Assembly (NCBI RefSeq): GCF_000003605.2
Contig: NW_003116950.1
Location: 224,882-278,210, forward strand
Direction: 5' to 3'
Length of the DNA: 53,329 bases
Source of the DNA: Saccoglossus kowalevskii
Taxonomy: Eukaryota; Hemichordata; Enteropneusta; Harrimaniidae
Under the pieces are notes generated by a model. That model saw only the letters and a list, made by a program, of their open reading frames with translations, was not told the DNA's origin and did no database searches. The number at the start of each line of letters is the position of its first letter. Within the stretch, counting starts at the first letter, position 1. The translations under genes were made by a program, and so were the position numbers. This document shows, piece after piece, positions 1,944-31,518 of the stretch.

Positions 1944-2073
1944 ATGCCGAGAGCGTTTCTTGTACGAAAGTACCGTAACTCGCCAAACGGACGCCGATAT
2001 ACGTATTCGCCACAGACCAGACACTACGACTACGACGGAGCGGTATTTCCACCGCTAACAGGCAACGTTACCG
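1944..2073 (+). CDS. ovo: Gene A exon 1: SNAG-domain exon
   Basis: This short exon encodes 43 residues beginning [10 protein letters not shown], plus one base of a split codon. MPRAFLV is the N-terminal SNAG signature shared by OVOL, Snail and Gfi proteins. In Snail and Gfi it recruits LSD1/CoREST-type corepressors, and it must sit at the extreme N-terminus. The ATG has A at -3 and an in-frame TAA 33 bp upstream. The donor is G|GTAGGT at 2073/2074. The leftover G joins AT of exon 2 to give Asp44, matching the Asp formed at the same junction in gene B. Confidence 0.85.
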
Positions 2074-5000
2074 GTAGGTTATGTTTCACTTAAGAAGTGT
2101 ACACCGACGGGTGTACATGGAATTGGACTAATTTAGATGCGAAACAGTTCAAAATGTACTAAATTTAATATTAATAACCAAAATTATATATTGCTTCCTC
2201 GATTATCATTCGTATAATGCTAAGTGCTAATTTTATGGTATATACTATTTTGAAGAAATGTGACGCATTAATATAATGTATCACATATCACTGTTTGATT
2301 TATTCAATTGCTAGAAATATTTCTAATGATATAAGTTTATGAAGTTTTAGTCTAAGTTTATGAATAGTAAATTAGCTTAGCAATTGAACTGACTTTTATT
2401 GTGGTCATTAGCCATAATTGGCACAGTTCAAATCAGCAGTGAATAGCCGATAATTAACAATTAATTAATCAATCCTAATTTTTAGTTGACTGGCACAAAA
2501 CATTCGCTTTATTGTTAAGTCAAGTGATAGATGTTGTGACATCCATTTCAGAATGTATTCTTACAGTTCACCAGTGAACTTAAACTTAAAGGGAAAGTTG
2601 CCAGTCCCAGGGATCATGCCATTATTTACGCTGTTTATTTAAGTAATCCGTGATTTGATTACCATTGTAATTTTAATCCAGTAAGTAAGTTTGCTATAGA
2701 ATTAGGCTTATAGTAATGCCGTTTTAAACTGCGGTGCACCAGCATCTACCCGTTAACTCTCCTGTAACACAAGTACCATCATTTATCGTGCATATATGTC
2801 AATGGATTAGCCTTTGCACCGGAATGGTGAACGCGCCTGCTTTAAGTATAACTACCAACACGATAAGCACACAGGTTTTTATCTCTTTGTAGTCTCACTG
2901 CGATTGCCACCACCTTGGTATTCTATTTCAGAGCGGCGCGGCGTAACTCAGGTTTCTAGAATTTCATACCGTTGAAGATCTTGTAATTTCATTCACTGTC
3001 GAGATTTGTACGTGCGATGGAAAGTGGGCGTTTTACCGCGAAGAGAGAAAAGCGATTTATTTGCCAATGTACTTGGTTAATTGTTCGTGGCGATAAGCCA
3101 ACTGAACGCCTCTCGTGGTATCACGGTATCTGCATAGTTTTGTCACCCCGGCTCACACGCAGCGGGTCGATGCGAGAACGGAGTTCTGGAGTTTGAAAAG
3201 CCGTATAAAGTGATTATATGGTTACCAGATACTCTCAATTCTATTTTAAAACTTCAATTGGTTCAACTTCGTGTAATGTCTATTTCGACATTAGATTGCC
3301 GATGCGGTTAAAATAGCCGGCATTCACTTAACTTGTAATTGTATATAGATACACCTTTTCTATGGGAATACCGTTTAAATATCCACTTAACGTAAGTGAT
3401 GAAAGGCTGTCCCTGTATTGAAATATCACTATAATATCATTATATTTTGAACGATTTTGACAACGTGGACATTGAACAAATATTCCCTGTTACCTCTAGA
3501 TTCACTCAGTCTCTGGGGGTCTGATGTTACGACTTTTTGTCTGCAAGGATTCTATGAATCGTCATTTGAAGATATCGTGTTCTGACTATCATTTTCTGGT
3601 TAGTGATATCACCGCTACATTGGTACTCCTGTCGATAACCTTGTACGGTGTAAACGACGTACGCCTACGTGTTAGTGTGCCCACTGTCGTGAAAACAAGC
3701 AAGTCTCAGTGCGCATGCGTATATTGGTTTGAATGCTGCTAATGTGCTGATGATTTGATGATAACGGCGATCACGAGAAAGCATTTCTCGAACACCACGT
3801 GGCAATCTATCGATTATACGTTGTTATACTTTCATTATTACGGGTCCATGACACAAGTGTAGAGACAAGAGTCTGAAGTTTCATTGAAAAATGATCAACA
3901 TGTATACTGTAAAACATGTCTTTTTCGCTAGCATGTTATTTTAGCTAATTTAGCAAATCTGTAATTTCGCTAATTCAAGATGTAGATATTTTAACAGAAA
4001 GCTTATTCTGACAGGGAGATAGTCGACACTTTAGCTAAATTAAGATTCTGTTAATTCATGCCAAAGGTCAAATCCATGCAGCTATATTTCAACGTGTTCT
4101 ACAGTATCAAGTTGTATATTTGAGAGATGTGTTCCTTATACCACACATTTTTCTTGATGTATATGGCATATATTAATATTGATATGTATCGTATTTAAAA
4201 TTATTTAGCTAACGTTTATATAATTACCATGGGTAAATTAAATGCACAAGTGCTCCTGATTACATTATTGGTGATGTACATAAATGATGCAGTATGTGTG
4301 CTTGATATACATAAGTGATGCAGTATGTGTGCTTGATATACATAAATGATGCAGTATGTGTGCTTGATATACATAAATGATGCAGTATGTGTGCTTGATA
4401 TACATAAATGATGCAGTATGTGTGCTTGATATACATAAATGATGCAGTATGTGTGCTTGATATACATAAATGATGCAGTATGTGTGCTTGATATACATAA
4501 ATGATGCAGTATGTGTGCTTGATATACATAAGTTTGATTTGACATGTTTCAAAAGATTACAATTTAAATAGTTTTTGTCGCACACTTCTCTCGTTTTACA
4601 GCACTCGGATTATTGCAAATGTGAAAGTTGATGTAGATGCCGATCTCGGTGTATGTACTTGCTTTGCTAATGCAGACGCCAGTGTAGTGGATTATATTGT
4701 GTCTTCTTATTTAATCCCCCCCCCCCGAAAAAAAAAAACGTCAGAATTTTTGGTTGGACTTTGCTTATTATAATCAGATCGCCAACATTCTCTGGAGTCA
4801 AACTTGCATTCAATAATATATATAACAATGTTTTCAAATTAGCCTGAACTGACCGTAATGTTAATGTGTTTACATTTGTTGTCAAGTTAATTTCTGTTTT
4901 GCTGCCAAAAATGTAACAATTAAAATTTCTTAATGACCACGGCTGCCCACAAGGAATGTCAAAAAGTAAAAAAGTAAAAAAAATCCCAAATGATTGCCAT

Positions 5001-31100: not shown

Positions 31101-31518
31101 ACACGCAAATTAATTCGAACAGTGACATAAAAGACGGGGCTCGGCGACCCGTCCATTGTGCATAATTATTCTGGCAGAACGGTCGATTAATTAATACACA
31201 TTTGTACATCCCCTAACATAATGAAGCAGCGACAGAAAGTAACTGCATATATAATTCTTCAACATATAAATGATTTAATAGTGACGTTATTATGAGATCG
31301 GTGAATAGTATTATTATTATTCAAGTTTTTCAGATATGACCCAAACGTCGCACAAAACATTATTTTGAATATTAAAACAAAAATACGTAAAAACGCATAC
31401 CTAGCAATTGTTGCATATTACATTTCGTAGTCGTGTGTCGATCCCGTTGTTGTATTGCCTCTTCCGTGGACATCTGTAAGGAGGACCGGTCTTTAGATAG
31501 GAGAAATAGTTTGGGCAT
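21870..31518 (-). CDS. ovo: Gene B: Ovo/OVOL-family zinc-finger transcription factor (three coding exons)
   Basis: Spliced model 31518-31401, 23511-22294, 22174-21870, totalling 1641 nt and encoding 546 residues. Joins are GT-AG, both phase 1. Residues 1-9 (MPKLFLLSK) form a SNAG-like peptide. Residues 41-395 are a long Ser/Pro-rich disordered region with an eh1-like motif FNVDFLI (204-210) and an AT-hook-like APGRPRM (366-372). C2H2 fingers lie at about 396-416 ([14 protein letters not shown]), 424-444 ([11 protein letters not shown]), 452-473 ([10 protein letters not shown]) and 491-512. The order SNAG, low-complexity region, four fingers is the classic Ovo layout, and fingers 1-3 match the family better than gene A's finger 1. 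It is expected to be a nuclear DNA-binding repressor. A strong internal start at Met44 (GAAATGG) could give a SNAG-less form. The fingers are certain; exon 1 is supported by motif plus exact phase. Confidence 0.93.
22175..22293 (-). other. Intron 2 of gene B (119 bp), mostly microsatellite
   Basis: Donor GTAATC (22293), acceptor CACTAG (22175). In the sense direction, 84 of its 119 bp are (TTTA)n, which may act as an extended polypyrimidine-like tract before the acceptor. Reading through from exon 2 stays open until the TAG of the acceptor itself, giving a repetitive YLFI tail. A retained intron would therefore truncate the protein after finger 2. Confidence 0.9.
22183..22266. repeat. (AAAT)21 microsatellite
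   Basis: An uninterrupted tetranucleotide repeat of 84 bp inside the short last intron of gene B. It is pure, so it is probably length-polymorphic. Confidence 0.98.
22294..23511 (-). CDS. ovo: Gene B exon 2: Pro/Ser-rich region and zinc fingers 1-2
   Basis: Acceptor TTTTTCTCCGCAG|AC at 23512/23511, donor CACAG|GTAATC at 22294/22293. This 1218-nt exon encodes residues 40-445. The N-terminal part is Ser/Pro/Thr-rich with an acidic patch ([13 protein letters not shown]). The middle is rich in Pro, His and aromatic residues. Fingers 1 and 2 close the exon. It corresponds to exons 2 and 3 of gene A without the intervening intron. An in-frame ATG at 23500-23498 in strong context (GAAATGG) is a possible alternative start. 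The open antisense frame at 22959-23444 is a shadow. Confidence 0.94.
23512..31400 (-). other. Intron 1 of gene B (7.9 kb)
   Basis: Runs from donor GTATGC (31400) to acceptor TCCGCAG (23512). It contains a tiny palindromic insertion with target-site duplication (28091-28138), TGACGTCA palindromes near 27879 and 30871, and otherwise unique AT-rich sequence without coding signal. The small open frames on both strands have no domain, no consistent splice context and no repeat origin. Confidence 0.72.
28091..28138. mobile_element. Minimal palindromic MITE-like insertion with 8-bp TSD
   Basis: GATTTGTA occurs at 28091-28098 and again at 28131-28138, flanking 32 bp that are almost only an inverted repeat: ACAGTCCCTCTATAG, one T, then CTATAGAGGGACTGT. 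Identical 8-bp flanks are the mark of hAT-type transposition. The interior looks like two terminal inverted repeats fused, i.e. an element deleted down to its ends. It could instead be a fold-back footprint. No transposase is nearby. Confidence 0.6.
31401..31518 (-). CDS. ovo: Gene B exon 1: SNAG-like exon
   Basis: On the minus strand, ATG at 31518-31516 opens 39 codons beginning [10 protein letters not shown], then one G and donor G|GTATGC at 31401/31400. M-P-[KR]-x-F-L-[VL] is the SNAG signature. Joining the leftover G to AC of exon 2 gives Asp40, the same phase and residue as in gene A, which makes coincidence unlikely. The ATG has A at -3. An earlier in-frame ATG eleven codons upstream sits in poor context (C at -3) after an in-frame TAG. 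Starting there would bury the SNAG peptide. The exon is too short for ordinary ORF calling. Confidence 0.78.

Follow-up and report, generated by a model that had tools for sequence, protein, structure and literature searches.

The DNA analysed here is a stretch of 53,329 bp from Saccoglossus kowalevskii (called the window), which corresponds to bases 224882-278210 of contig C1051 (NW_003116950.1; 405,251 bases) in a genome of 572 Mb and 4,830 contigs. It carries two zinc-finger genes of the Ovo family, here named A and B, and a third Ovo gene, C, was found on the same contig to the left of the window. The locus is thus a cluster of at least three Ovo genes and not a fresh two-gene duplication. 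Splicing of the window by script gave a predicted four-exon model for gene A (1944-17027, plus strand, 305 amino acids (aa), intron phases 1, 0 and 1) and a predicted three-exon model for gene B (31518-21870, minus strand, 546 aa, intron phases 1 and 1), with GT-AG borders in all five introns. The parts of both genes, in window coordinates, are listed below.

1944..2073, plus strand: gene A exon 1, with the SNAG-type start MPRAFLVRK and a phase-1 donor (GT donor at 2074)
13974..14185, plus strand: gene A exon 2, an acidic, Ser-rich linker with a phase-0 end, in frame with exons 1 and 3 and with AG/GT borders
15755..16037, plus strand: gene A exon 3, with fingers 1 and 2, acceptor phase 0 and donor phase 1 (splicing and finger pattern)
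16735..17027, plus strand: gene A exon 4, with fingers 3 and 4, the C-terminus and the stop TGA (splicing and finger pattern)
17028..21869, no strand: stretch separating the A and B stop codons, 4,842 bp with 0 N (splicing and N count)
21870..22174, minus strand: gene B exon 3, with fingers 3 and 4, the C-terminus and the stop TAA (splicing and finger pattern)
22184..22266, no strand: (TTTA)n microsatellite, which occupies most of gene B intron 2 (repeat scan)
22294..23511, minus strand: gene B exon 2, with a long Ser/Pro-rich region, the eh1-like motif FNVDFLI, fingers 1 and 2 and a phase-1 donor (splicing and patterns)
31401..31518, minus strand: gene B exon 1, with the SNAG-type start MPKLFLLSK and a phase-1 donor (splicing)

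The original prediction had described two complete, linked and inverted Ovo paralogs, a short one of 305 aa and a long one of 546 aa lying tail to tail with 4.8 kb between their stop codons, which share the SNAG exon, the finger layout and two intron positions and phases; all of this was borne out by the spliced models. The first common intron follows the SNAG exon and the second falls within HTG-VRP at the junction of fingers 2 and 3, both being of phase 1 in both genes, and gene A has an additional phase-0 intron ahead of its finger exon that gene B lacks. When the two proteins were aligned, 75 of 138 residues were identical (E 1e-54). The window contains no N, and A and B are thus joined by sequence free of gaps. 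An ATG with G at both -3 and +4 was also observed near the start of gene B exon 2 (window 23498-23500, minus strand); it could serve as the start of a SNAG-less form of B, if intron 1 holds a promoter.

Membership in the Ovo/OVOL family was judged from the fingers and the N-termini. The published OVOL patterns are C-x2-C-x3-[FW]-x8-H-x3-H and C-x2-C-x3-F-x8-H-x3-H for fingers 1 and 2, and C-x2-C-x3-F-x8-H-x4-H and C-x2-C-x3-[Fsgat]-x8-H-x4-H for fingers 3 and 4 (PMC3380836, Table 5). Each of the four C2H2 fingers fits its pattern in A, B and C alike, and the zinc ligands are intact in all three proteins. The His-to-Cys gaps between the fingers are 7, 7 and 17 in A, B and C, which in the printed numbering corresponds to 5/5/15, the spacing that follows from the finger coordinates given for human OVOL1 and fly Ovo (PMC3380836). 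Directly after finger 4, SPLITK in A and SNELRK in B lie where OVOL1 has a short motif (237-242), a correspondence of position only. By what we take to be the form of the SNAG motif, the starts MPRAFLVRK (A), MPKLFLLSK (B) and MPKSFLIKK (C) are of SNAG type on sequence alone; such a domain is present in OVOL1 and OVOL2 (PMC9050647). When 173 kb of the contig, including 50.8 kb of N, was scanned from ATG with the pattern MP[RK]x[FY][LIV], SNAG-like starts occurred at only three places, one for each Ovo gene. On the fingers of A and B, Pfam returned C2H2-type families only, some of them below the cut-off; PDB sequences matching the fingers numbered 158 for A and 183 for B, and no OVOL-named structure was present among the 60 matches listed for each gene. 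A and B were confirmed as intact Ovo-type genes.

The genome was searched twice, with the fingers of B and then those of A as queries, and each search scored 150 candidates, from 704 and 662 at first look, respectively. Exons of A, B and C, all on C1051, were recovered by both queries, and no fourth Ovo gene was obtained among the candidates scored. Outside C1051, the best of the matches listed was on contig C2624 for the B query (E 9.2e-20, 41% identity) and on C1594 for the A query (E 1.4e-14, 40%), and some other off-contig loci showed up to 57% identity over short stretches. On E-value alone, off-contig matches fell in the same range as individual exons of A and C, and the presence of the finger 3-4 pattern, including its gap of 17 residues, was therefore taken as the test. 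This pattern was present in 9/9 loci covering A, B or C and in 0/13 of the others among the 22 genome-search loci, while the finger 1-2 pattern alone was not discriminating, being found in generic zinc-finger loci too. Gene C lies on the same strand (+) as A and ends 24.2 kb to the left of it, with the following parts.

From 192845 of C1051, plus strand: gene C SNAG exon, with the start MPKSFLIKK and a phase-1 donor (start pattern)
201480-201783 of C1051, plus strand: gene C finger exon, with fingers 1 and 2, a phase-0 start and a phase-1 end (genome search)
202363-202655 of C1051, plus strand: gene C last exon, with the stop (genome search)

The order on the contig is thus C (+, 192.8-202.7 kb), A (+, 226.8-241.9 kb) and B (-, 246.8-256.4 kb), all within 64 kb. 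The pair as first described holds in that A and B are two intact linked genes, and was incomplete in that the cluster has at least three Ovo genes, A and B being two of them.

The divergence of the three copies was determined over 124 finger residues, of which 71 are identical between A and B, 78 between A and C and 79 between B and C. At the fourfold sites of identical residues, agreement was found at 6 of 20 for A-B (4.9 expected from base composition), 6 of 25 for A-C (6.1 expected) and 5 of 21 for B-C (4.9 expected). A blastn comparison of the A locus (window 1-19400) with the B locus (19401-34000) at E 1e-3 matched only two pieces of finger exons. A, B and C are therefore old duplicates and not recent ones, as fourfold sites are saturated in all three pairs.

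At positions -1, 2, 3 and 6, presumably the contact positions in the usual numbering, the predicted contacts are DFDR in finger 2 and QCSS in finger 3 of A, B and C; those of finger 4 are REDT in A and C and NDTG in B. The phase-0 intron before the finger exon is likewise common to A and C. For comparison outside the cluster, the fingers of OVOL1, OVOL2 and fly Ovo were used as provisional reference sequences, which makes the comparison a lead only; the OVOL1 sequence used agrees with PMC3380836 in the positions of all four fingers. B shares 88 of 124 residues with fly Ovo, and A and C share 81 and 84, respectively, with OVOL1, more than A, B and C share with one another. The best of eight unrooted trees pairs A with C, B with fly Ovo and OVOL1 with OVOL2; as it has no root, a grouping of A and C with the vertebrate genes does not follow from it. 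A clade of A, B and C was not rejected by the approximately unbiased (AU) test with either A+C or B+C paired (p 0.168 and 0.138). With A+B as the closest pair, AU rejected the tree (p 0.010) but the Kishino-Hasegawa (KH, 0.060) and Shimodaira-Hasegawa (SH, 0.111) tests did not, and in a five-taxon test without C, A and B as sisters gave an AU p of 0.043, with KH and SH both at 0.073. The choice between an ancestral cluster and a local duplication is not settled by this unrooted and weak tree with its provisional references.

Our best explanation as a whole, with a probability of about 0.5, is that of three old clustered Ovo genes, C (+), A (+) and B (-), which would share a core binding site and SNAG-mediated repression, with A and C of a short type and B of a long type. 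Several observations weigh against it. The A-C grouping is not clean, B and C sharing 15 residues against A and A and C sharing 14 against B; the tree has bootstrap values of 57-62%, 124 sites and long branches in addition to its provisional references. The middle exon of gene C was not found, none of 23 candidates of at least 45 residues being convincing, and a run of 10,993 N, ending at the window start, separates C from A. For the B query, moreover, the finger 1-2 exon of C (E 5.0e-19) came out below the generic C2624 locus, and E-values alone are therefore no marker of Ovo genes.

Scaffold numbers of published gene models were read from the style of the model names, an assumption of ours. 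Two OVOL genes each are reported for amphioxus, sea anemone, leech, limpet and sea urchin, and one for Trichoplax (Kumar et al., 2012; PMC3380836), which makes the earlier statement that many animals are described with one ovo gene weaker than it appears. Both limpet (Lottia gigantea) models are numbered scaffold 13 and both Nematostella models scaffold 31, the numbers differ within the leech pair (1 and 4) and the amphioxus pair (374 and 236), and OVOL proteins cluster lineage-wise in the published trees (PMC3380836). Two linked Ovo genes in an invertebrate are thus probably not new, because the limpet and anemone model names put both genes on one scaffold. In the open-licence PMC literature, as judged by titles and abstract openings, no paper was found that treats a cluster of Ovo genes or how linked Ovo genes are ordered, and no printed Ovo peptides were found in the papers searched for them. 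A BAF query, relating to the vertebrate OVOL neighbours BANF and SNX, had no match in the genome, but neither had any of 14 controls, so this result is uninformative.

How the cluster arose can be read in more than one way. All three genes may have come by tandem and inverted duplication within the animal's own lineage, after its split from flies and vertebrates, and then diverged, a history that we regard as quite possible although short of even odds. Tight physical clustering, the SNAG-exon and finger intron phases common to the copies, the lineage-wise clustering of OVOL proteins (PMC3380836) and the A, B, C clade that AU left standing in two arrangements all agree with it. The saturated synonymous sites count against it, though they show age only, as do the matches of B to fly Ovo and of A and C to OVOL1, which exceed the 71-79 identities among A, B and C, and the linked pairs implied by the limpet and sea anemone model names (PMC3380836). 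The lineage-specific duplication of the original prediction accordingly stays unproven either way: a common clade of the three copies is tolerated and published trees lean towards it, but a tree with A and B as nearest relatives is rejected, by AU only.

Alternatively, a linked pair of a short OVOL-type and an Ovo/Svb-type gene may have existed before the bilaterians and been inherited, the short gene being doubled later to A and C, with vertebrates keeping one type and flies the other; we consider this history possible but less likely than not. It is suggested by the best tree, in which B joins fly Ovo and A+C stand apart from them, by the five-taxon AU value for A and B as sisters, and by the shared scaffold numbers of the limpet and anemone models, given our reading of the names. 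Set against this are the lack of a root that would place A and C with vertebrate OVOL, the short alignment with its provisional references, long branches and low bootstrap, the KH and SH tests that do not reject A and B as sisters, and, in print, a tree favouring lineage-wise clustering and leech and amphioxus pairs on different scaffold numbers (PMC3380836). An assembly artefact, in which scaffolds or haplotypes were wrongly joined, is very improbable: the run of N between C and A would allow it, but the sequence from A to B is free of N and finger identities of 57-64% are far too low for alleles.

Returning to the three old clustered genes, their function can be predicted from the family. 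Ovo binds CNGTTA (PMC11789646), and the SNAG domains of OVOL1/2 recruit histone deacetylases (HDACs), OVOL1 repressing via CCGTTA (PMC9050647). A, B and C would all bind a CCGTTA-type core and compete for it, a common core site being expected because the contacts of fingers 2 and 3 are identical in the three proteins. Since fingers 1 and 4 differ, they may adjust the flank preference, and A/C and B might reach partly different targets. The SNAG end of each protein would recruit HDAC-type corepressor activity, and in epidermal, germ-line or sensory cells all three are expected to repress from the sites that they share; the larval photoreceptor cells of a chiton express an ovo gene (PMC4689004). 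In insects, the N-terminal repression domain of the long Shavenbaby form is removed through Pri/Ubr3 and the protein becomes an activator (PMC6428570). B, which has a long region that looks disordered and carries an eh1-like motif, would be the Ovo/Shavenbaby-like copy, and A and C may represent the short type, doubled through tandem duplication. The single eh1-like FNVDFLI of B lies at aa 204-210, and shuffles of B gave a mean of 0.045 such motifs with the eh1-like pattern used; eh1 is a Groucho-binding motif. A division of labour between A and B is plausible.

Candidate Ovo sites were also counted in the window, and one further feature was noted upstream of gene A.

1669..1863, plus strand: two CCGTTA words (at 1669 and 1858) upstream of gene A (word count)

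Both lie within the 500 bp preceding A, compared with a density of 0.39 per kb over the window as a whole, and no CCGTTA was present within 1 kb on either side of the B start codon. The words before A hint at self- or cross-regulation, a weak lead that was noticed after the fact. A cluster of CNGTTA as an Ovo target was considered and rejected: the densest 300 bp holds five sites (32762-33019, about 1.2 kb upstream of B), and 70 of 200 dinucleotide shuffles reached five.

Beyond the Ovo genes, a reverse transcriptase fragment (RVT_1, E 2.5e-7; window 12719-13072, minus strand) marks a retroelement inside gene A intron 1 and was the only Pfam hit when ten more open frames from the window were examined. 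Four minisatellite arrays with units of 30-31 bp, 83-100% matching, were observed at window 4272-4531 and 11484-11645, both in gene A intron 1, and at 48359-48912 and 53076-53329. The window gave no RNA family at the gathering score and no tRNA by ARAGORN. In the left flank of C1051, at about 163-174 kb, three open frames of the NNMT/PNMT/TEMT methyltransferase family (L021:8031-8498, minus; L022:2668-3099, plus; L022:8007-8519, minus) are perhaps a local gene array. About 46 kb to the right of the window, L032:6403-8517 (minus strand) is one uninterrupted open frame that encodes 705 aa; its product is rich in Ser, looks disordered and has no Pfam match at E 0.01. When compared with the Ovo fingers, viral contigs gave one weak match (39% over 38 residues) and prokaryote genome contigs one (35% over 83 residues), both without the Ovo finger pattern, and viral contigs held no exact match to a back-translated 10-residue peptide.

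Taken by itself, the locus adds an ordinary member to a well-known family, and its arrangement is more interesting than first described. If the explanation is true, short and long Ovo types are clustered in one genome, which would allow the question whether the repressor/activator split made by isoforms in fly and mouse was once divided between neighbouring genes. On a more speculative and rather unlikely reading, a short OVOL-type gene lay beside a long Shavenbaby-type gene in the cnidarian-bilaterian ancestor and both were kept here, with the short type doubled; flies and vertebrates would each have kept one, and the single-gene logic of repressor or activator isoforms in fly ovo would be a secondary merger of roles formerly divided between two neighbours.

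Among known systems, the human OVOL genes lie on different chromosomes. Vertebrate OVOL1, OVOL2 and OVOL3 occupy separate gene neighbourhoods (PMC3380836), whereas the genes here are clustered within 64 kb. The vertebrate OVOL proteins are short, at 215-286 aa (PMC3380836), with a SNAG start in OVOL1/2 and the same four fingers; gene A encodes 305 aa. Lottia gigantea (scaffold 13) and Nematostella (scaffold 31) each have, by name, two Ovo genes on one scaffold with no third listed, the linkage coming from the names only. Fly Ovo/shavenbaby resembles gene B in its long N-terminal part, its four fingers near the C-terminus and their 5/5/15 spacing, and it has a SNAG-like start as well. The fly, however, has one ovo gene with several isoforms (PMC3380836, PMC11789646), whereas at least three genes are present here.

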